Shown one piece after another: positions 4,039 through 50,670 of a stretch of DNA of 64,000 nucleotides (position 1 is the first letter of the stretch; each line of letters starts with the position of its first letter). The stretch is taken from the NCBI RefSeq assembly GCF_026130165.1, contig NZ_JAIHOM010000010.1, forward strand, positions 1-64,000. The letters are read 5' to 3'. The position numbers were made by a program, and so were the translations under genes. This stretch comes from Spirulina subsalsa FACHB-351. Lineage in GTDB: Bacteria; Cyanobacteriota; Cyanobacteriia; Cyanobacteriales; Spirulinaceae. Below the pieces are notes generated by a model. That model did not search any database, had not been told where the DNA came from, and worked only from the letters and a program-made list of their open reading frames with translations.

Positions 4039-5658
4039 ATGAAATCCATGACCCCTAATCCGACCGAGACTTTGCCCTCAGAGTCTGCCCCAGAAAAACT
4101 CAATCGCCAGATGATTGTCATTCTGGATTTTGGCTCCCAATATTCAGAACTCATTGCCCGACGGATTCGGGAAACTCAAGTTTATTCTGAAGTGCTTTCC
4201 TACCGCACCACGGCCGAACAGTTACGCCAACTCAGTCCCCGGGGGATTATTTTATCCGGCGGTCCCAGTTCGGTGTACGATCCCTATGCTCCCCAATGTG
4301 ATAGCCAAATCTGGGACTTAGGCATTCCCGTTTTAGGGGTATGTTACGGAATGCAGTTAATGGTTAAACAACTGGGGGGCAGTGTTGAACGGGCGAAACA
4401 AGCCGAATATGGCAAAGCCTCCCTCTTTATTGACGACCCCACAGACTTGCTAACTAACGTTGAAGATGGTTCCACTATGTGGATGAGTCATGGGGACTCT
4501 TGCACCAGCTTACCAGAGGGCTTTCAGGTTCTGGCTCATACCGATAATACCCCCTGCGCTGCGATCGCCCACCATGAACGGCAACTCTACGGAGTCCAAT
4601 TCCATCCCGAAGTTGTCCACTCCGTCGATGGCATCGCCCTGATTCGGAACTTTGTTTATCATATCTGCGACTGCGAACCCACCTGGACCACCGAGGCCTT
4701 TTTAGAAGAATCCATCCGGGAAATCCGCGCCAAAGTTGGGGATAAACGAGTTCTCCTCGCCCTTTCTGGGGGCGTGGACTCTTCTACTTTAGCGTTTCTT
4801 CTTCATCGCGCCATTGGCGACCAACTCACCTGTATGTTCATCGACCAGGGGTTTATGCGGAAAGGGGAACCGGAACGCTTAATGGAAATCTTTAACGAAC
4901 GATTTCATATTAAGGTTGAATATGTCAGCGCCCGCGATCGCTTCTTAGAAAAACTGGTAGGAGTCTTAGACCCCGAAGAAAAACGCCGTCGCATTGGTCA
5001 CGAATTTATCCGCGTCTTTGAGGAAGAATCCCGGCGCTTAGGTCCCTTTGACTATCTCGCTCAAGGCACCCTCTACCCCGATGTGATTGAGTCTGCCGAC
5101 ACCAACGTAGACCCCCAAACCGGGGAACGAGTGGCCGTGAAAATCAAAAGCCATCACAACGTTGGAGGTTTGCCCGAAGACCTACAATTTAAGCTAGTTG
5201 AACCCCTGCGCAAACTGTTTAAAGATGAAGTGCGCCAACTCGCCCGTACCATTGGTTTACCCCCAGAAATTGTCCGTCGTCACCCCTTCCCGGGCCCAGG
5301 TTTAGCCATTCGCATTATTGGCGAAGTGACAGCCGAACGGTTAAATATTTTGCGCGACGCGGATTTTGTGGTGCGGGATGAGATCCGCAAGTGGGATATG
5401 TATAATGACTTCTGGCAAGCTTTCGCAGTCTTGTTACCGATTCACAGTGTTGGGGTGATGGGAGATCAACGAACCTATGCCCATCCGGTAGTAGTGCGTT
5501 GTGTCTCTAGTGAAGATGGTATGACTGCCGACTGGTCCCGTGCGCCCTACGACCTCTTAGAGGCCATTTCTAACCGCATTGTAAACGAGGTTAAGGGGGT
5601 TAATCGCGTGGTTTATGATATTACCTCCAAACCCCCCGGAACCATTGAGTGGGAATAG
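4039..5658 (+). CDS. guaA: GMP synthase (glutamine-hydrolysing)
   Basis: The 539-aa enzyme converts XMP to GMP using glutamine and ATP. The N-terminal class I amidotransferase domain (about 24-215) has the nucleophile C102 in GVCYGMQ and the HPEVV His-Glu pair. The ATP-pyrophosphatase domain begins near 225 with the P-loop SGGVDSS (243-249). The dimerisation domain ends with the canonical KPPGTIEWE. The first ~23 residues are a cyanobacterial-style extension. The TAG stop lies in the first unit of a GGGAATA tandem repeat that begins exactly there. Confidence 0.97.
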
Positions 5659-5739
5659 GGAATAGGGAATAGGTAATGGGGAATAGGTAATGGGGAATAG
5701 GTAATAGGTAATAGGTAATAGGTAATAGGTAATAATTAT
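5650..5739 (+). repeat. Short tandemly repeated repetitive sequence (GGGAATA/GGTAATA heptads)
   Basis: About a dozen near-perfect heptamers (GGGAATA, GGTAATA, GGGGAATA) follow the guaA coding end and include its TAG stop. Similar STRR heptads occur at 36130-36180, 44983-45092 and 50556-50660. The tract is followed by AATTATCAATTGTCAATTATC-type direct repeats (5735-5765) and by GACTCCC heptads (5808-5830). Such STRRs are common in filamentous cyanobacteria, and their function is unknown. Confidence 0.9.
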
Positions 5740-5889
5740 CAATTGTCAATTATCAATTATCAATTCCCCTCTTCCCTGCTCCCCCTCTCCCCTGCTCCCC
5801 TGCTCCCCGACTCCCGACTCCCGACTCCCGATGCTCTTGACTTCTAACTTGGGATCTTAACTTGTCAAGATTGTATTTCTCCTTCCCTA

Positions 5890-9352: not shown

Positions 9353-12300
9353 ATGCTCCAACTTGCTGGTTATGAAGAACTGGATCAACTGTATTCTGGG
9401 AATCGTACTCTGGTATATCGTGCCATTCGGAAACCAGAAAAACAGCCCGTTATTATCAAGATTCTGCGCAATCCCCACCCCGATTTTCAGGAGTTAGTTC
9501 AATTTCGCCATCAATATACTATTACCAGCCAACTGGAACATCCCCGCATTGTTAAACCTCTGGGGCTGGAAACTCGGGGGAATAGTTATGCTTTAGTGAT
9601 GCCTGATGATGGTGCGATCGCCTTATCTGACTATTGGTATCGTTCTCCCCGTTCCCTAGAGGCCTTTCTCGCCCTCGCCATCCAACTCACCGAAGCCCTC
9701 GGGTACTTGATTCAACAGCATATCATCCACAAAGATATTAAACCCGCCAATATTCTCATACACCCGGAAACCGGGGAGATTAAACTGATTGATTTCAGCA
9801 TTTCCAGCATACTGCCCAAGGAACACCACCACATCATAAACCCCAATGTTCTCGAAGGCACCCTAGCTTATATTTCCCCCGAACAAACCGGACGCATGAA
9901 CCGAGGCATTGATTACCGCACCGATTTTTACTCCTTGGGGGTGACATTTTTTGAACTGTTAACCGGAGAATTACCTTTTAAAAGTGACGATGCAATGGAA
10001 TTAGTCCATTGTCATATTGCCCAAGGGGTGCGCTTTCCCGAAGACACCAACGGCGAGAAAATTCCGACCATCTTACAGGCCATTGTCTTAAAACTAATGG
10101 CCAAAAATGCCGAAAACCGCTATCAGAGCGCTTGGGGATTACGATACGACCTCGAACGTTGTTTAGAGCAGTTAGAAACCACCGGGAAAATAGAACCCTT
10201 TACTCTGGGAGAACGAGATCAGTGCGATCGCTTTTCAATCCCAGAAACCCTTTATGGACGAGAAGACCAAGTACAAACCCTCTTAGACATTTTCCAGCGT
10301 GTTGCTGACCCCCATCAAGAGCATAAACAAGCAGAAATGGTTCTCGTAGCCGGATTTTCCGGCATTGGGAAAACCGCCGTCATCAACGAAGTTCACAAAC
10401 CCATCGTTAAACAACGGGGCTATTTTATCAAAGGCAAATTTGACCAATTTAATCGCAATATTCCCTTATCAGCCTTTGTCCAAGCCTTCCAGGACTTAAT
10501 CGGACAACTCCTAGGAGAACCAGACCTTCAATTAGCCAACTGGAAAAATAAAATCCTCATGGCCCTAGGAGACAGCGCCCAAGTCATAATTGAAGTCATC
10601 CCAGAATTAGAACAAATTATCGGCCCTCAGCCTGCCATAGCCGAACTTTCCGGCAATGCCGCCCAAAACCGCTTTAATCTCCTGTTCAAGAACTTTGTTC
10701 AAGTCTTCACCACACCCCAGCATCCCCTCGTCATCTTCCTGGACGATCTCCAGTGGGCCGATGCCGCCTCCTTAAACCTGTTGAAACTCCTAATGACCGA
10801 AGCAGAAGGAGGGTACTTATTAATCTTAGCCTCCTATCGAGATAATGAAGTCCATCCGACCCATCCCCTCCTGCTTACCCTCGGGGAAATTGCCCAACAA
10901 GGAGCCAATTTAAGCCCCCTCACCCTCACCCCCCTCACCCCCGAGGACATTAACCATCTGGTGGCCGATACCTTACGCTGCTCCTGGGAATTGGCCACCC
11001 CCCTCTCCCAATTACTCTACCAAAAGACCCAAGGCAATCCCTTCTTTGCCACCCAATTCCTAAAAAGCCTCTATGAGGACGGTTTAATCACCTTTAATCT
11101 GGAGTCAGGACACTGGGAATGTGATTTAACCGCAGTACGCGGTTTAGCCATCACCGACGATATAGTAGGCTTTTTGGTAGAACGTTTACGCAAATTACCC
11201 CCATCCACCCAAGACATCCTGAAACTCGCCGCCTGTATTGGCAATCAGTTTGATTTAAATACCTTGGCTGTAGTTCACAAACAGGACAGAGAAACCGTCG
11301 CGACCAGCCTCTGGGAAGCCTTGCAAGAGGGGTTTATTGTACCCGAGAACGAAACCTACAAATTCTTGGCCTATGTTCCCCAAGGGGAAGATCAGCCAGA
11401 ATCCGATCCCTTGGCCGGACAAACCGTGACTTATCGCTTTTTACATGATCGGGTACAACAGGCGGCCTATAGTTTAATTCCCCCGAGAGACAAGGAAATC
11501 ACCCATTTAACCATCGGTCGTCTACTGCTCCAAAACACCTCCCAAGGAGAAGAGAATCTCTTTCAAATTGTTAACCAGTTGAATATGGGGGAATCCCTGC
11601 TGGAAAGTCAGCCAGAACGGGAAGAAGTCGTCCAGTTAAACCTGCGGGCAGCTGAGAAAGCGAGAGCTTCGGCGGCCTACAGTGCGGCGGCCAATTATCT
11701 CCACCAAGCCATTGTCCTCCTTAGGCGCTCCTCCTCCCACCCTTGGCAAGACCACTATGATCTCCTGTTCCCCTTACATAGCTTACTGGCCGAGGTGAGC
11801 TACTTAAACGGCGACTTCCTGACGGCCGATGAACAAATTCAGATCGTTCTAAGGGAGGGACAATCGGTATTGGATACGGTTAAAGTCTACGAAATTCGCA
11901 TTCAGTGTTACGTCGCCCAAAATCAATGTCAAGAGGCTCTAAATGTGGGGCTAGAGGTGTTAAATCGGCTAGAAATTCCCCTCCATGATGCCCCCCTACC
12001 CCAGATTCAAGTTGCAACCCTCTACCATCTCCCCCCCTTAACCAATCCTCGGATTCTCGCCGCCCTACGCATTTTAAGTAAACTTTGGGCCCCCGCCTTC
12101 ATTGCCAATCCCGCCCTTCTGCCCCAAGTTATCTTAACCCTGCTCAACCTCTCCATCACCCACGGCAACTCAAGCCTCGGGGCCTTTGCCTACGCCCTCT
12201 ATGGGATGTTCCTCTGTGCCACCCTGACGGATCTTGAGTTAGGCTATCGGTTCGGAGAATTAGCCCTCCATACCCTCGATCAATATCAAGATGTAGAACT

Positions 12301-14674
12301 GACCTGTAAAGTCAATCAACTGTTCTACGCCTTCATTCGGAACTGGAAAGAATTAGTGCGCGATCGCGTCGAAGCCCTCGCCCAAAACGTCCTCACAGGC
12401 TTAGAAAACGGGGATCTCGAATTTGCCTGCTATTCCGCCATTAACTACTGTGACAACCTTTGTCTCATGGGCGAGTTCCTTCCCATCATCCAACAGAAAC
12501 AAGAATACTATATCGAACTCACAGGCAGCCTCCACCAAACCATTCAACATAGTATTGCCCAATTGTGGGGGCAATTTGTAGACAACCTAATCAGCCCAGG
12601 GGAAAATCCCACCCAACTCGAAGGTCAAAAATTCCAGGAATCCCAACAAATCCCCGCCCTCCAAGCCGCCAACGCCTTCAGCGCCCTGTTCTTCTTCTGG
12701 ACCGCCAAAACCATCCTCGCCTACATTTTCCAAGATTATCAAGCCACCCTCAACCATGCCGCCACCGCCAGTCAATACCAACTCGCAGGCGGGGGGCTAT
12801 TGCCCATCACCCAAATTCCCTTTTATCGCGCCCTCGCCCAGTTAGCCCTCTACCCCCGCCTAGAGACTGACCAAAAACCCCAATCCTTCGCCCAAATTGA
12901 GCAAGATTACGCCCAACTGAGCCAGTGGGTCACCCACGCCCCCCAGAACTTCCAACATAAAGTAAATCTCATCGCCGCAGAACAGGCGAAAGTCTTGGGG
13001 CAACGGGAACAGGCCATGAATTTGTATGATCAGGCGATCGCCCAAGCCAAAGAACATCAATATCTCCACGAACAAGCCCTAGCTTACGAATGCGCCGCCT
13101 ACTTTTACCTCGACTGGGGCAAAGACATCATCGCCAGCGCCTACCTTCAAAAAGCCTACTACTGTTATGCCCACTGGGGCGCTCAAGCCAAAATCCACCA
13201 ACTCGAACAAAATTACTCCCATCTCCTCACCCCCATCCTCGAAAAACCCGATCTCACCGTCACCGCCACCAATCCCCGAGTTTCTACCCAGAGTTTCGGC
13301 ACCCTCACCACCACCACCACCCTCTTTGACCTCGGTTCCGCCCTCAAAGCCTCCCAAGCCCTCTCCGAAGAAATCGAACTTGATGCCCTCCTCGGGAAAC
13401 TCATGCACATTGTCCTCGAAAATGCCGGAGCCGATCAGGGAGTCTTAGTCCTCAACACCTTGGGACAATGGGAAGTCGTCGCCCACTGCCAACACAACAG
13501 TTGTTCCCTCATTCACCTCACCCTAGACCAAGTGCAAATCCTACCCCAAACCCTGATTCATTGGGTCAAACGAACCGCCCGCCCCATTCTCCTCAATCAC
13601 TGTGAACAGGATAATCAATTCATCGGGGATCTGTATTTCAACCAACATCACCCCAAAAGCCTCTTCTGTACGCCCATCCTCAACCAAGGCCGCCTCATCG
13701 GCATCCTCTATCTAGAAAACAACTTGACCGCCGAAGTATTCACCCCCCGCCGCCTTGAGATGTTAAACCTCCTCACCGCCCAAGCCGCCATTTCCTTAGA
13801 AAATGCTCAACTCTATCACAATCTAGAAGATAAAGTCACCCAACGCACCGCCCAACTCGCCGCCGCCAATGCCGAAATTAGCCAACTTAACGAACGATTA
13901 AGGGCGGAAAACCTGCGCATGGGTGCAGAATTAGACGTAGCCCGACGGGTACAGCAGATGATTTTACCCAAACCCGAAGAATTACAAGCCATTACACCCC
14001 TAGAAATTGCAGGCTATATGGCCCCGGCCGATGAAGTAGGAGGAGATTATTATGATGTCCTAGTAGAAGAAGATGTCATCACCATCAGCATTGGAGATGT
14101 CACCGGACATGGTTTAGAAAGTGGTTTAGTCATGTTGATGGCACAAACCATTGTCCGCACCCTACGCGAATTAGGCGAGCAAAACCCCATCCGTTTCCTC
14201 AACACCGTTAACGCCACCATTTACAAAAATGTGCAACGCATGGGAGTTGACCGCACCTTGAGTTTAGCCGTTCTCAACTATAGAGAAGGGTTATTAAGTA
14301 TTAGCGGTCAACATGAATTAGTCTTAGTCGTGCGCGCCAATGGTCACTTAGAAGCCATTGATACAATGAACTTAGGAATGACCATTGGTTTAGTAGATGA
14401 TATTAGCTCCTTTGTCTCACAAATTTCCCTAGTCTTAGAACCGGGGGATGGAATTGTCCTCTACACCGATGGCATCCCCGAAGCCGAAAATCAAGCCGGA
14501 GAATTTTACGGTTTAGACCGTTTCTGTGATGTCATCCGCCGCCACTGGGACAAAGACGCATCGGCCATTCATCAAGCCGTCATCGACGATTTAGAGACTT
14601 TTATTGCGTCCCATAAGGTGTTTGACGATATCACTCTGTTAGTGGTTAAGCGTCGGGAGCAAGATCCCACTTAG
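9353..14674 (+). CDS. Serine/threonine kinase - AAA ATPase - GAF - SpoIIE-type phosphatase fusion
   Basis: The 1773-aa signalling protein has an N-terminal Hanks-type kinase (about 5-270): ATP-binding K36, catalytic loop HKDIKPAN with D128, DFS (147-149) in place of DFG, and SPEQTGRMNR in the activation segment. Next come an AAA/NB-ATPase with Walker A GFSGIGKT (about 334-341) and Walker B IFLDDLQWADA, a long TPR-like helical region (about 620-1290), a GAF domain (about 1325-1490), a coiled coil, and a PP2C/SpoIIE-type phosphatase (about 1530-1770) with GGDYYD and ISIGDVTGHG. Kinase-AAA-GAF fusions are common in cyanobacteria, more often ending in a histidine kinase. The DFS variant recurs in this family. 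The TAG stop is the first triplet of a MITE-like repeat. Confidence 0.92.
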   Translation: MLQLAGYEELDQLYSGNRTLVYRAIRKPEKQPVIIKILRNPHPDFQELVQFRHQYTITSQLEHPRIVKPLGLETRGNSYALVMPDDGAIALSDYWYRSPRSLEAFLALAIQLTEALGYLIQQHIIHKDIKPANILIHPETGEIKLIDFSISSILPKEHHHIINPNVLEGTLAYISPEQTGRMNRGIDYRTDFYSLGVTFFELLTGELPFKSDDAMELVHCHIAQGVRFPEDTNGEKIPTILQAIVLKLMAKNAENRYQSAWGLRYDLERCLEQLETTGKIEPFTLGERDQCDRFSIPETLYGREDQVQTLLDIFQRVADPHQEHKQAEMVLVAGFSGIGKTAVINEVHKPIVKQRGYFIKGKFDQFNRNIPLSAFVQAFQDLIGQLLGEPDLQLANWKNKILMALGDSAQVIIEVIPELEQIIGPQPAIAELSGNAAQNRFNLLFKNFVQVFTTPQHPLVIFLDDLQWADAASLNLLKLLMTEAEGGYLLILASYRDNEVHPTHPLLLTLGEIAQQGANLSPLTLTPLTPEDINHLVADTLRCSWELATPLSQLLYQKTQGNPFFATQFLKSLYEDGLITFNLESGHWECDLTAVRGLAITDDIVGFLVERLRKLPPSTQDILKLAACIGNQFDLNTLAVVHKQDRETVATSLWEALQEGFIVPENETYKFLAYVPQGEDQPESDPLAGQTVTYRFLHDRVQQAAYSLIPPRDKEITHLTIGRLLLQNTSQGEENLFQIVNQLNMGESLLESQPEREEVVQLNLRAAEKARASAAYSAAANYLHQAIVLLRRSSSHPWQDHYDLLFPLHSLLAEVSYLNGDFLTADEQIQIVLREGQSVLDTVKVYEIRIQCYVAQNQCQEALNVGLEVLNRLEIPLHDAPLPQIQVATLYHLPPLTNPRILAALRILSKLWAPAFIANPALLPQVILTLLNLSITHGNSSLGAFAYALYGMFLCATLTDLELGYRFGELALHTLDQYQDVELTCKVNQLFYAFIRNWKELVRDRVEALAQNVLTGLENGDLEFACYSAINYCDNLCLMGEFLPIIQQKQEYYIELTGSLHQTIQHSIAQLWGQFVDNLISPGENPTQLEGQKFQESQQIPALQAANAFSALFFFWTAKTILAYIFQDYQATLNHAATASQYQLAGGGLLPITQIPFYRALAQLALYPRLETDQKPQSFAQIEQDYAQLSQWVTHAPQNFQHKVNLIAAEQAKVLGQREQAMNLYDQAIAQAKEHQYLHEQALAYECAAYFYLDWGKDIIASAYLQKAYYCYAHWGAQAKIHQLEQNYSHLLTPILEKPDLTVTATNPRVSTQSFGTLTTTTTLFDLGSALKASQALSEEIELDALLGKLMHIVLENAGADQGVLVLNTLGQWEVVAHCQHNSCSLIHLTLDQVQILPQTLIHWVKRTARPILLNHCEQDNQFIGDLYFNQHHPKSLFCTPILNQGRLIGILYLENNLTAEVFTPRRLEMLNLLTAQAAISLENAQLYHNLEDKVTQRTAQLAAANAEISQLNERLRAENLRMGAELDVARRVQQMILPKPEELQAITPLEIAGYMAPADEVGGDYYDVLVEEDVITISIGDVTGHGLESGLVMLMAQTIVRTLRELGEQNPIRFLNTVNATIYKNVQRMGVDRTLSLAVLNYREGLLSISGQHELVLVVRANGHLEAIDTMNLGMTIGLVDDISSFVSQISLVLEPGDGIVLYTDGIPEAENQAGEFYGLDRFCDVIRRHWDKDASAIHQAVIDDLETFIASHKVFDDITLLVVKRREQDPT

Positions 14675-17253: not shown

Positions 17254-20200
17254 TTACCAAGGACTGCCAACGAGGGTGAAGGCACTCCAGTAGTAGGGAT
17301 GGGAGAAGTCTTGCTCGGGGGGGGTGTCGGGACTGGCGCTGAAGTCTTGGCGTATCATGGCGATTTGGGCTTGTCGGAGGGCTTCTGCTTTGACGGGGGC
17401 GGTGGTGAGGTGATGGTAGAAGGAGGACATGAGGGCGAGGGTGCCATCATCGCTGACGTACCAGAGACTGCCGAGGGCAGATTTGACTCCGGATGCGATC
17501 GCAAATCCAGCAAAACCTAATTCGGCTTCTGGGCTCCCCAAGGCGGTACGACAGGCACTCAGCACTAATAAATCAACGGGGGGATTGTTTAAGTTGAGTT
17601 CCCGCAGGCGATTGAGGGGGAGTCTTTGGTCCCAAAATTGAATGTAGGAGTTGCTGAAGTCCCCCGGTTGGAATTCGCCGTGAGTGGCAAGGTGTAGGAT
17701 GGGGTGGGGATTGTCAGCCCGTGCTTGTTGGAAGGAGGAGAGGGTAAATTGTTCGTTGAGGAAGGCAATACCCTGTTTAGTGTCTTGGGTAATGCGAGAA
17801 AGTTCTTTGGGAACGGCAGGTAAGGGGGTAGCTTGATCATTGAGGAAGGATGAGGCACCCATGGCTAGCACTTTTTGCGCTCTGAGGTCGTTATAACGCC
17901 CGTCGGTGAGGCTAAAACTGGGCATGAAGCCGATATTATATTTTTCGATCAGGAACTGTTCTCCGTCGTGTAGGGCGGCGAGGGGGAGCGATCGCAATCC
18001 AGCATCCAGAATAAAGGAAAGGTTGCTAATGCCCTCGGTTTCTAGGGCTTCTTCTAAGGGGGCTATTAGGACATTGTAGAGGTCTTGGGCGGGTTTGAGG
18101 TAACTGGTGCGGCGGGGATTGGTGACGCGGGCCCGATAGTCTTCGGCGAGGGCTAAGACTTGTTCGCGGGTGGCTTCTTCGAGTCGCCAGCGTTTCATGC
18201 CGCCGTTGGAGGTGACGATGATTAATTCTAGATGATCGTTGGGTTGAGCGCGATCGCCTTGACCCAGAAAACGATTCCCAGCCTTACGCGGGTATTCCCA
18301 TAACGCCACGTCTTCCTCTGCTGCCCCTTCCGGTTTAAAAAAGCCATAGACTAAAGCCGTTTTTACCCCCGTTAACCGTTCCGTTTCCCGTAATCTTGCT
18401 TGGGTTTCCTGTAACGTTAAACTAGGCGCATTTTCCAGCCCTAAATAAGACGTAAAACTATTAGAAAATTCCCCCTCTAACGCTTCTAACGCTTCACTAT
18501 CTACACTGATAGATTCTTGATGCCCCCCCTCATTTAAGCGCACTTCTTGTTTCGGCTTAACCTCAGCCTCTTCTGTCTGACTTTCTACCATTTTTTTCGT
18601 AGACTTAATGGCTTCAGGAGAAGGATTCGTCGCCACTTGAACCTCAGTCTCCGGCTCAGAATTGGGTTCAACTCCGGGGACTGAAATGATTTTTAAATTA
18701 TTATTTTCGTAGGTAAAGAAAAATGAGCGATTCGGAACAATTGTCACCTCTCCCGTCGTGATTGCCCCCATTGTCCCATTGACACTCCCATCCCCAATTT
18801 TAAAGGGAACTACACCTTCCCCACCATGAGCAATTCTAATCTGACCGCCATAGAATCCCCCTCCCGTTGCAATACTTGCTAACAAACCAGAAGCCGTTTC
18901 AAATGCTCCTGTCACCCGGAAAAATCGAGGAGTATTGATAGTAACATCACCGCCCCCCATTCTCCCTTGAGTATTGAGACTTTGGGCTTGAATATTGTCC
19001 GTCGCTCTTAGGCTAATATCTCCCCCCCAATACTCTTGAGCAGAGGTGTTTAACTGCCCGGTTTTAATTCCCCCTTGCAAGCTAGTTAAACGAATATCAC
19101 CGCCATAGTAACCCCCTTGGGTAGAGGTGTTAATATTACTCGTGGTAACATTACCGTATCCGGTGTAGAAATTAACAGTCCCACCGCCCCAGAAACCCCA
19201 AGTGGAACGGGTATCAATATTTCCGGTTTTAAGATCACCAAAATAAGTCCAAGCGTTAATATTACCCCCATCTCCCCAGTTAGACGAGGCGGTTAAATCC
19301 CCCACTTCAATGAAGCCATAATAACTATCTAAGTCAATATTTCCGGCTTGATATCCATATTCAGAACGGGTATTAATATTTCCCGTTACAATGTTATAAA
19401 AGGGAGTGATACTTACATTTCCCCCATCTCCCCACCAGGCCGATGTATTGATATTTCCCGTATAAATCGAAGCCCAATTACTATTTAATCTCACCTCACC
19501 GGATTGATTGCCATAGGTGGATTCTGTGGTAATATTTCCCGTCACAATTAATTCCTGTGCATCTAGGTTAATATTGCCCCCATCACCATCAAACGCTGAT
19601 GAATTGAGATGACCTGTTTTTATATCACCAGATGAGGTTCTTAAATTAAGATCCCCCCCATAGTACCCTCCTTGGGTAGAGGTGTTAATATTTCCCGTAG
19701 TAACATTACCAGATCCGGTGTAGAAATTGACATCTCCTCCACCCCACCAGCCCCAAGTGGAATGGGTATCGATATTTCCAGTATTAATCCAACCAAAATA
19801 AGTCCAAGCGTTAATATTACCCCCATCTCCCCAGTTAGATGAGGCCGTTAAATCTCCCACTTGAATAAAGCCATAATAACTATCTAAGTGAATATTTCCG
19901 GCTTGATATCCATATTCAGAACGAGTATTAATATTTCCCGTTACAATATTATAAAAGGGAGTAATACTCACATTTCCCCCATCTCCCCACCAGGCCGATG
20001 TATTGATATTTCCCGTATAAATTGAAGCCCCATCACTATTTAATGTAATCTGTCCTGCCTGATTGCCATAGGTAGATTCTGTCGTGAGATTTCCAGTAAC
20101 AATTAACTGTAGTGAATCTAGGCTAATATTTCCCCCATCTCCCTCCCAAGCAGAAGCCGTTAAGTTTCCGGTTTTAATCTCCCCTATCCAAGCAGTTAAA

Positions 20201-22725
20201 TTAATATTTCCGGCTTGATAGCCATATTCTGAACGGGTGTTAATATTCCCCGTTGTGATATCATAATATCCCGTGTATAAATTCACATTTCCACCACCCC
20301 AAAAGCCCCAAATTGAATGGGTATCGATATTTCCAGTATTAATCCAACCAAAATAAGTCCAAGCGTTAATATTACCCCCATCTCCCCAGTTAGACGAGGC
20401 CGTTAAATCCCCCACTTCAATAAAGCCATAATAACTATCTAAGTCAATATTTCCGGCTTGATATCCATATTCAGAACGAGTATTAATATTTCCCGTTACA
20501 ATGTTATAAAAGGGAGTAATACTCACATTTCCCCCATCTCCATTCTGGGATGATGTGTTAATATGTCCCGTATAAATTGACCCTTGAAAATTGCTTAAAT
20601 TAACCGTTCCTCCATCGCCAGATTGACGAGAATTTACTACAATATTACCTGTGCTAATAGTGGAACGAGCTTGAATGGATAAATTTCCGCCATCGCCATT
20701 GACAGAATAACTATTAATCCCATCATTGACATTGACTGATCCCGATAAACTGGATATCTGAATATCTCCGCCTTTGCCATGATAACTAGAGACATCAAAA
20801 GCCCCCCATGCCCCACCTCCGGTAATAGTAATATTATTGACGGCGTTGAGCAAAACATCCCCACCATCTCCCATAGACCCAGAGGAACTATAACTATAAG
20901 TATAAATTGAGCCGTTGATATTAATACCATTTTTAGAGTCAATATAAACCGCTCCCCCATCCTGATTATTTACCATGATTGAGGTATTAATTGAACCCGT
21001 GTTAATATTGCCCGCTAAACTATGATTAGGTTCGTATTGATTCGTCAGTAAAACGACTCCATTGGGGGCAGAAACTCGAATATTACCAGTCGTAATCGCG
21101 CCAGAAGTTAGGCCGGAATGGGTGGCAGTTGGAGCGTTGGCTGTTCCCCCGTTGCCCGGTGCGCCACCCCCAAATTGATTCCAGTTAATCCCTGCACGAA
21201 TGTCTAGGGTAGGGTACCAAGATCCGTCTATTTCTAAAGCTATGCCATTACTTAAAAAAACATTGGCTAAATTGGCAATGGTATCTACTCCATTAAAGGG
21301 ATTCCAATTATTGGGATTAATTGATTGGTCAGTAGTATCTACTCCGGTGATGTTAATATCTCCGGTGGTGACACTACCCCCAGCTAAAATATGTAGGGAG
21401 GCTCCGGTATAGTTACCGATGGAAACGTTACCTTGGGCGAAAATAATGGGATCGTCGGGACTGGCGAGATCGCCTATAGTGCCATCGAGTTGTTCAATGC
21501 GGAAATCTCCTCCGGTAAAATAGTGAGCGTCGCCGTTGACGGTGCTGCTGGAACGTAGGGTTAAATCTTGCCCTGCCCAGAGTCCACTGTGGGGATGGTT
21601 GAGGGCAGAAATGTTAATTTGTTGGTTGCCTTGAACTAATAAATTGCCACCGGCTTGGGCAATGAAGGGGGTGCTGGGACTATCTTGGATTAAAATGCGA
21701 TCGCCTGCTAATAAGGACAGATCCCCTAAACTGTACAGTTGGCTCTGGATTAAGGCTAAGTTTCTCTGGGCAGAAATCAGGGTGTTTCCGGCCTGACTTT
21801 GCTGCACCAAGACATCCCCTGTGCTGAGGGGGGTGTTACTGTGCCGGGGGGTGACTTCTCCGGTGGGAGTGGTGCTTAAACCTGTCTCAGGGGCCCCTGT
21901 GAGGAGACTGGGCAAGTCTAAGGGGGAAAAGGGAATAATTTGCCCTTGGGTGTCCCGAGGGGCTTCTATTTCGAGGCTGAGGAGGTGTCCGGGAAGGGAC
22001 AAACGAATGCGACTACTTTGGGGGACTGAGGCGATAATTAAATTGCCTGTGGGGGCGTTTAGCTCTCCTGTACTAATCACGGTTCCGGCTAAGAGGCCTA
22101 AATTGTGGCCGGGGGTGACGCTTAAATGGCCGGCGTTGATAATCCCTCCCGAGGAGGACAAGTCAAAGGCAAACTGGGAGGGGGTGCCGATGAGGGTTTG
22201 ATAGTCATTATCGCCCCAAGCGTTGAACCATTGATTCTCCCCAAATCCTATCCCGGTGGCGGTTGTGGCGAAAAAGTCGGCGGGAACGTTGAGTTGAGCA
22301 TGGGGGCCGAAAATAATCCCGGCTGGATTCATAAGGTAGAGGTTGGAGTTACCCCCACTGACTTGGATTAAGCCGTTAATATAGGAAGGATCTCCCCCCA
22401 CAATGCGACCGAGGATGTTGTCAATTTGGGGGTTAGAGAGAAAGTTAGCAATTTGCCCGGGGTTGAGTCCGAATTGTTGCAAACTGTGGAAGAGGTTGGC
22501 CCCGTCGCTGGATAAGCTGCCTCCGGTGATGTCAATGCGATCGCCATTTTCCAGAATAATCGTCCCGGTGCCATCGTTGGCGGGGATGATGGTTTGGGCG
22601 GCAAGGGGTGCAGCGTGGGAGACTAGAACTGTTCCCAAGGTGTAGCCAGCAATTTTGGCAGAAGGGCAAACCAACGCACTCACTCGACTCCAGATTGATT
22701 GAACTTGTCCCACAACCTTACTCAT
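17254..22725 (-). CDS. Two-partner-secretion exoprotein with C-terminal CHAT protease
   Basis: The 1823-aa protein has a long signal-like N-terminus (1-44). A TPS/filamentous haemagglutinin secretion domain follows (about 45-270), with motifs such as [21 protein letters not shown] Gly/Asn-rich beta-helical region (about 370-1310) follows, with units like [16 protein letters not shown] linker leads to a CHAT caspase-like domain (about 1490-1820) with catalytic H1682 in HLATHGEF and C1725 in [12 protein letters not shown] exoproteins cross the outer membrane through an FhaC/TpsB pore; no such gene is in this window. The CHAT dyad is intact, so an active protease that is exported or surface-tethered is possible. 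The middle contains 555-bp repeats. Confidence 0.93.
18970..20566 (-). repeat. Higher-order 555-bp repeat within the TPS-CHAT gene
   Basis: Three copies of a 185-codon supra-unit lie in the beta-helix region. A marker segment (AAAAGGGAGT near 19398, 19953 and 20508) recurs at exactly 555 bases. Each unit begins near [20 protein letters not shown] and includes [14 protein letters not shown] and TESTYGNQ. The copies are near-identical in DNA, with the last one partial. The pattern implies recent in-frame duplication or recombination. Confidence 0.88.
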
Positions 22726-36129: not shown

Positions 36130-36180
36130 TTAGGTAATAGGGAATAGGGAATAGGGAATAGGGAATGGGGAATGGGGAAT
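36130..36180. repeat. STRR heptads upstream of sppA
   Basis: About seven GGTAATA/GGGAATA/GGGGAAT units lie directly upstream of the sppA start, followed by AATTATCAATTATCAAT. Read on the minus strand in the sppA frame they encode an open PIPYSLF-type peptide, which would lengthen SppA if an upstream start were used. Confidence 0.85.
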
Positions 36181-36227
36181 AATAATCAATTATCAATTAT
36201 CAATGCTTAATTCTCCCCCCCCAGTTC

Positions 36228-44928: not shown

Positions 44929-45262
44929 GGTAAATAGGGAATAGGGAGTCAGGTTCGTAGTTGCGCTTTAGCGCCCAGTCGGGAGTCGGGAGTCGGGAGT
45001 CGGGAATCGGGAGTCGGGAGTCGGGGAATTAAGAATTATTACCTATTCCCTATTACCTATTCCCTATTCCCTATTACCTATTCCCCATTCCCGAACCGTC
45101 CTGAGAGGTTCGGAAAATACCACTTACAGAGATCATCCCCTCCCCGTCAGTATAGAAAGGAGAATAATCAGTTGTAAAGAGAGCAAGGGCAGGCTGAGAG
45201 CAAAGCTGGGTTCAGTTTCTCTTGGAAACTCATTGTTGTTAGCTTGGAGCAGACTTAATATT
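44929..45262. repeat. STRR block and dnaK leader
   Basis: The spacer contains a second copy of the 26-base dispersed repeat (44951-44976), then GGGAGTC heptads (44983-45024), TATTACCTATTCCC heptads (45035-45092) and the dnaK leader. CAGTATAGAAAGGAG near 45148 may include promoter elements. No CIRCE element (TTAGCACTC-N9-GAGTGCTAA) was seen. Confidence 0.65.
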
Positions 45263-50512: not shown

Positions 50513-50555
50513 TCAGTACACTATGGAACTTCACAATTAATAATTATTAATTGTT

Positions 50556-50660
50556 CCCCATTCCCTATTCCCTATTACCTATTCCCCATTCCCCATTCCC
50601 TATTCCCCATTCCCTATTACCTATTCCCTATTCCCTATTACCTATTCCCCATTCCTTATT
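50556..50660 (+). repeat. STRR heptads upstream of giant kinase
   Basis: About 14 TTCCCTA/TTACCTA/TTCCCCA units form a tract directly upstream of the kinase start. The tract is open in the kinase frame and would encode repeated [14 protein letters not shown] units, extending the N-terminus by 40 residues if the ATG at 50551 were used. Confidence 0.88.
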
Positions 50661-50670
50661 ACCTCGTAAT

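Follow-up and report, generated by a model that had tools for sequence, protein, structure and literature searches.

Two-partner secretion (TPS) exoproteins such as FHA, HMW1, HxuA and EtpA share a signal peptide, an N-terminal TPS domain, a long stalk of beta-repeats and a TpsB partner. CHAT proteases of known role, including Csx29 of Craspase, the kin of separase and SAVED-CHAT, work inside the cell, in its cytosol or nucleus. We describe here a gene that joins these two types of protein. It lies in the first 64,000 nucleotides of contig NZ_JAIHOM010000010.1 of the cyanobacterium Spirulina subsalsa FACHB-351, a stretch that we call the window. Its product is probably a type Vb (two-partner secretion) exoprotein with a CHAT cysteine protease as its effector.

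Comparison with described systems places the protein between several of them. It has the parts of FHA, HMW1, HxuA and EtpA, including a candidate TpsB, but it ends in a CHAT domain, and its genome holds seven such genes for few, mostly unlinked TpsBs. With Csx29 (a TPR-CHAT), SAVED-CHAT and HetF it shares the CHAT fold and a His/Cys dyad. Unlike them, it has no known CRISPR partner, lacks a TPR domain in the Pfam scan and, where they are cytosolic, is predicted to be exported. Gingipain R (RgpB, family C25) is likewise a caspase-fold cysteine protease outside the cell, but its fold match is weaker (E 2.7e-5), there is no sequence match, and the export route and organism group differ, making it a parallel and not kin. 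CdiA and other TPS-borne polymorphic toxins also carry a C-terminal enzyme on a TPS stalk; in our family, by contrast, the enzyme is constant, the stalk is variable and no immunity gene was seen. Cyanobacterial TPR-CHATs with a signal peptide (L038, L024 and L046-L049, all loci of the same genome) share the CHAT domain, a signal-like N-terminus and scarcity of cysteine, but begin with TPR repeats and lack a TPS domain.

Architecture of the exoprotein

The gene is an open reading frame running from 22725 down to 17254 on the minus strand and encoding 1823 residues. The original prediction of a TPS and a CHAT domain in this frame was borne out by Pfam (137.7 and 228.5 bits). Pfam, NCBIfam, the sequence itself and structural models together give a layout of signal peptide region, TPS domain, beta-repeat stalk and C-terminal CHAT domain, with the following parts:

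17254..22725, minus strand: TPS-CHAT exoprotein gene, 1823 residues; both domains in one open frame, with an orthologue at the syntenic place in congener G001
22597..22725, minus strand: signal peptide region, residues 1-43, an n-region and a hydrophobic stretch of 17 residues; from sequence and paralogue alignment
21988..22566, minus strand: TPS secretion domain, residues 54-246, with a ten-residue motif; PF05860, TIGR01901, PDB relatives and model
20626..21945, minus strand: first stalk part, residues 261-700, beta-rich, without a Pfam family; Pfam scan and model
18691..20625, minus strand: repetitive stalk, residues 701-1345, GNINT-type repeats; sequence, repeat analysis and model
19040..20449, minus strand: 300-nucleotide repeat in three copies spaced 555 nucleotides (185 residues) apart, 80-81% identical; repeat analysis
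18418..18690, minus strand: low-complexity linker, residues 1346-1436, the fastest-evolving part
18097..18417, minus strand: conserved alpha/beta segment preceding CHAT, residues 1437-1543, modelled within the CHAT fold unit
17263..18096, minus strand: CHAT peptidase domain, residues 1544-1821; PF12770, model and Foldseek
17680..17682, minus strand: His1682 codon (HLATHGEF), conserved in 68/68 homologues
17551..17553, minus strand: Cys1725 codon (LSACRTALG), conserved in 68/68 homologues, the sole cysteine beyond the signal region

Comparison with a congener indicates that this is a genuine gene and no chance open frame. G001 holds an orthologue in the same synteny (dihydrouridine synthase, TPS-CHAT, SRPBCC, TPR membrane protein), and the ratio of nonsynonymous to synonymous substitution rates (dN/dS) is 0.08 in the TPS domain and 0.19 in CHAT, with 0.18-0.21 in the stalk and 0.33 in the linker. 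Scans for a promoter and a terminator gave results no better than shuffled sequences.

The CHAT domain appears catalytically intact. Modelled from an alignment of 67 rows, the CHAT unit (residues 1420-1823) reached a predicted local distance difference test score (pLDDT) of 89.7 and a predicted template-modelling score of 0.91. Its Foldseek matches include Csx29/TPR-CHAT (E 9.5e-14), separase (4e-8), gingipain R (2.7e-5), DdvA and SAVED-CHAT; searched as a profile against PDB sequences, the domain gave no match. His1682 and Cys1725 were numbered correctly in the original prediction, and both are present in 68/68 full-length homologues (a set of distinct TPS-CHATs whose start is complete) at about 50% identity. 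Because the dyad is invariant and its cysteine is kept in a nearly cysteine-free protein, catalysis is evidently under selection, and the domain is predicted to act as a cysteine protease. With the dyad intact throughout, we rejected a pseudo-enzyme.

At the secretion end, the NCBIfam model adhes_NPXG matches at residues 79-156, within the range of PF05860. Both PDB sequence matches and Foldseek searches with the model relate the TPS domain to EtpA, HxuA, HMW1 and FHA; the model is all-beta, with pLDDT mostly 92-98, and reproduces the beta-helical TPS fold of FHA, HMW1 and HxuA. The long beta-helix first described thus has good support in the TPS domain, whereas along the rest of the stalk, modelled as all-beta with pLDDT about 80 in the repeats and below 50 at residues 460-570, it is no more than plausible. 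By eye, the C-terminal segment of the stalk resembles that of paralogue L034.

Predicted export and candidate TpsB partners

Export of a catalytically intact CHAT domain on a haemagglutinin-like stalk is strongly supported by the signal peptide, TPS homology, cysteine depletion, TpsBs in the genome and TpsB genes beside TPS-CHAT genes elsewhere. The N-terminus looks like a signal peptide with its end near APLAAQ; when the seven paralogues are aligned, this region stops in each at an invariant Gln44. Of 76 TPS-CHATs, 63 have a hydrophobic stretch near the N-terminus, versus 186 of 490 control open reading frames, and the lowest-scoring exceptions resemble start codons called too early.

Cysteine depletion is a strong sign of extracytoplasmic life, as support rather than proof. 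TPS-CHATs contain 1.19 cysteines per 1000 residues, compared with 10.5 for other open reading frames of the same genome and 9.2 for those flanking the other loci. Exactly one cysteine follows residue 50 in 35 of 68 homologues, and even giant members of 2280, 2430, 2669 and 3928 residues hold a single one each. The congener orthologue retains Cys1723 alone. Most of the CHATs in the window's genome that look cytosolic contain more cysteines, the maximum being 11.

Export from the cytoplasm appears to be no exception among the CHAT proteins of this genome. The original prediction treated an exported CHAT as an exception among usually cytosolic enzymes; that exceptionality did not hold up, for at least six other CHAT proteins here have signal-like N-termini. 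The TPR-CHATs L046, L047 and L048 combine such an N-terminus with the catalytic cysteine only and no TPS domain, and are apparently exported too. The proposed delivery of CHAT to the cell surface or beyond is one of two options: the domain may end there or in the periplasm, where the C-terminal parts of some TPS exoproteins stay.

The genome encodes plausible transporters away from the window. As originally noted, the window holds no TpsB gene. A ShlB search of the genome (5.26 Mb in 279 contigs, 99.99% complete) returned strong matches on contigs C158, C130 and C19, together with Omp85-like proteins, and a local profile gave a fourth TpsB match on C225. The C158 and C130 proteins have POTRA_2 and ShlB domains, the kind of partner that the original prediction had proposed to look for; the genome does not lack a TpsB, a lack that would speak against export. 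In a TpsB tree these two group with TPS-CHAT-linked TpsBs across a 100/100 branch, with C19 and C225 outside, and either is a candidate partner of the window protein. The C130 TpsB adjoins a TPS protein without CHAT.

Linkage and co-occurrence tie TPS-CHATs to TpsBs in other genomes. A TpsB gene directly adjoins a TPS-CHAT gene in L057, L070, L075, L094, L096, L097, L117 and L127, and also in L180-L186, regions picked for close coordinates. Of 67 genomes sampled from the class Cyanobacteriia, 51 have a TpsB, and 39 of these carry the CHAT type; none of the 16 that lack TpsB does (Fisher p 3e-8, with no correction for kinship). When a long frame is required, the counts become 36 genomes with TpsB and 0 without.

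A cyanobacterial family and its neighbours

Constant ends and an exchanged stalk are, by sequence comparison, the hallmark of the family. Searches of the genome returned 22 matches for CHAT and 9 for TPS. Of the nine TPS proteins, seven, namely those of the window gene and of L032-L037, combine TPS with CHAT. Relative to the window protein, the CHAT regions of the paralogues are 46-56% identical and the N-terminal regions 51-63%. Their middles differ: Cadherin_4 in L032, FG-GAP in L034, DUF4347 with DUF11, Beta_helix or Big_1 in L033, L036 and L037, and no known domain in the window protein. We considered DUF4347 as a second, degenerate caspase-like domain and dropped the idea, its profile matching CHAT over 15 columns at the Cys motif with a probability of 2.6%.

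In these searches the family is confined to cyanobacteria. The seven CHATs of this genome, used as queries against 84,980 genomes, found at least 510 CHAT relatives, and all 76 loci fetched are cyanobacterial. Viral contigs yielded no relative; plasmids yielded CHAT relatives below 60% identity, of which the one inspected, H2, is a 450-residue protein annotated 'CHAT domain-containing' only. In a tree of 103 CHATs, a sample chosen by similarity for which the bootstrap had not settled, a single clade (support 100/99) unites the TPS-CHATs with a few relatives that are truncated or have no TPS domain. Sister to this clade are TPR-CHATs whose N-termini look like signal peptides, namely L038 and L024 of the window's genome and L062 of Phormidium. 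The seven paralogues are interleaved with other genera and are therefore old. The CHAT type occurs in 14 of 14 genomes of a near-relative set, one of which has 49 matches, and in 39 of 146 genomes of a phylum-wide sample, where some matches are short CHATs without a TPS domain. The architecture can be derived from existing domain annotations. In the literature, searched with few subscription journals covered, no paper joins 'CHAT domain' with two-partner secretion or filamentous hemagglutinin, and no experimental function for the family was found.

Variants of the architecture occur alongside it. In G002, the genome with 49 matches of the TPS-CHAT type, contig C428 carries a head-to-tail array of five or more TPS-CHAT genes whose N-termini resemble one another (L145 1-20000 and L146 1-8493). 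TPS proteins without CHAT adjoin TpsB in L041 (11235-13820, with DUF4347) and L140 (3943-7065); L140, in congener G001, has about 960 bases between the TPS protein and TpsB, so CHAT may have been lost there. Short CHATs of the TPS-CHAT type, 440-515 residues long, have a signal-like N-terminus and no TPS domain:

L141, 8384-9928: short TPS-less CHAT, divergent from a TpsB gene
L188, 3826-5190: short TPS-less CHAT
L189, 4366-5685: short TPS-less CHAT
L190, 4694-6070: short TPS-less CHAT

Exported CHATs lie near DUF928 and CHASE2 genes, suggesting a role in envelope sensing for the family, which we infer for the window gene as well. The window gene's own neighbours, checked for the conservation that the original prediction had raised, did not recur at other TPS-CHAT loci. 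In Nostoc L057 the gene order is TpsB, TPS-CHAT, DUF928, CHASE2-cyclase, and the last three recur in L078. DUF928 adjoins TPS-CHAT in L035 of the window's genome, TPS-CHAT adjoins CHASE2 in L191, and congener locus L143 reads CHASE2-CHAT, DUF928, TPR-CHAT, TpsB. At 30 DUF928 loci with 1.5-kb flanks, CHASE2 adjoins in 16, CHAT in 10-11, TPS in 8 and TpsB in 2. A hydrophobic N-terminus marks 37 of 38 DUF928 proteins. In these proteins CHASE2, a sensor domain of the periplasm, is fused either with a cyclase or with another CHAT, and the CHASE2-fused CHATs retain a GHS...NSC dyad.

Further observations concern these neighbours and the window at large. DUF928 (PF06051) is a family of unknown function with CHASE2, CHAT, TPS or TpsB adjoining at most of loci L149-L178, a strong signal from its gene context; its single literature match was work on WD40 proteins. 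Fusions of an N-terminal CHAT (GHS...NSC) to CHASE2, in L038 (13009-15360), L030 (6138-8516), L143 (683-3031) and L123 (1460-3889), often stand beside DUF928 and exported CHATs and could be a second, cytosolic CHAT of the same pathway. The window also encodes, at 9353-14674, a 1773-residue signalling protein with Ser/Thr kinase, AAA ATPase, GAF and SpoIIE phosphatase domains. Arrays of 7-nucleotide tandem repeats lie at 5651-5831, 36131-36181, 44977-45092 and 50554-50664. The last overlaps the called start of a 1950-residue PAS/GAF histidine kinase frame, whose true start is therefore probably downstream.

Mechanism, alternatives and significance

We propose that the protein delivers its protease by two-partner secretion. 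The chain would leave the cytoplasm via Sec, and its TPS domain would dock on a TpsB pore; the genome has few of these, all encoded away from the window, and those of C158 and C130 are the best candidates. The stalk would then be threaded to the surface with CHAT following last. CHAT would come to rest beyond the cytoplasm, either tethered at the surface as an enzyme or kept in the periplasm as a cap. Since the family keeps its ends constant and exchanges its stalk, the stalk may set what is sensed or bound, and CHAT may provide a shared output by cutting a protein of the envelope or the cell's surroundings at specific sites. More tentatively, the likeliest output would be envelope or contact sensing passed through DUF928 and CHASE2 partners, though with the balance tilted against it. 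A full relay is a more speculative, rather unlikely extension: exported CHATs, many on exchangeable TPS stalks served by shared TpsB pores, would report contact or ligand binding via DUF928 and CHASE2 to a second CHAT or a cyclase in the cytosol.

Several observations weigh against this proposal. Most TPS-CHAT loci lack an adjacent TpsB or DUF928 gene, and the window gene adjoins neither these nor CHASE2; its neighbours are ordinary (SRPBCC, TPR membrane protein, dihydrouridine synthase). The short CHATs of L141 and L188-L190, signal-like at the N-terminus and devoid of a TPS domain, imply that this type of enzyme can do without the TPS stalk. Low-complexity repeats by themselves lower cysteine content. 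Domains, dyad, family, TpsB linkage, cysteine depletion, selection and gene neighbourhood can be read from the sequences directly, whereas export, proteolysis, location, substrate and signalling are inferred from them.

Other roles for the CHAT domain account for less of the evidence. It could be an autoprocessing device that has no external target and cuts its own linker or stalk, so freeing either the fibre or the CHAT domain. Known TPS adhesins do undergo proteolytic maturation, and linker 1346-1436 is low-complexity, acidic and fastest-evolving, as expected of a flexible tether. Yet the linker is not conserved among paralogues, leaving no common cut site visible, and self-release alone leaves stalk-less exported CHATs and the DUF928/CHASE2 neighbourhood unexplained; we consider this unlikely. 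Less likely again is that CHAT is a folded cap anchoring the fibre in the periplasm, with catalysis secondary or absent. Its C-terminal position, exported last, would suit such a cap, and some TPS C-terminal parts are periplasmic, but a His and Cys invariant in 68/68 homologues at about 50% identity, with the retained cysteine the catalytic one, fit an enzyme better.

Delivery of CHAT to neighbouring cells as the tip of a CdiA-like polymorphic toxin is very improbable. The TPS stalk with a C-terminal enzyme, the tandem arrays and the up to 49 copies per genome recall such toxins. However, a constant C-terminal domain on a varying stalk is the reverse of CdiA, and on this ground we rejected the toxin. 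In addition, no conserved small immunity gene lies downstream at family loci, and one genome would hold seven copies of one toxin type. Hardly credible at all is an ordinary cytosolic CHAT protein with an accidental TPS-like N-terminus. Such a location would match that of CHAT proteases of known function, but the TPS domain is under the strongest constraint (dN/dS 0.08), cysteine is depleted, TpsB is linked, and a single TPS-CHAT clade spans the cyanobacteria.

In Nostoc 7120, a mutant resistant to phage is altered in a 'filamentous hemagglutinin N-terminal domain' gene (PMC10811720). Such proteins may therefore matter for phage contact, and it is possible that this gene is itself a TPS-CHAT. 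With up to 49 genes in one genome, an entire cyanobacterial family appears to export a caspase-type enzyme from the cytoplasm on stalks that can be swapped. Should this hold, the role of the many cyanobacterial CHAT genes becomes directly testable, and the DUF928 and CHASE2 proteins nearby would gain a candidate function.

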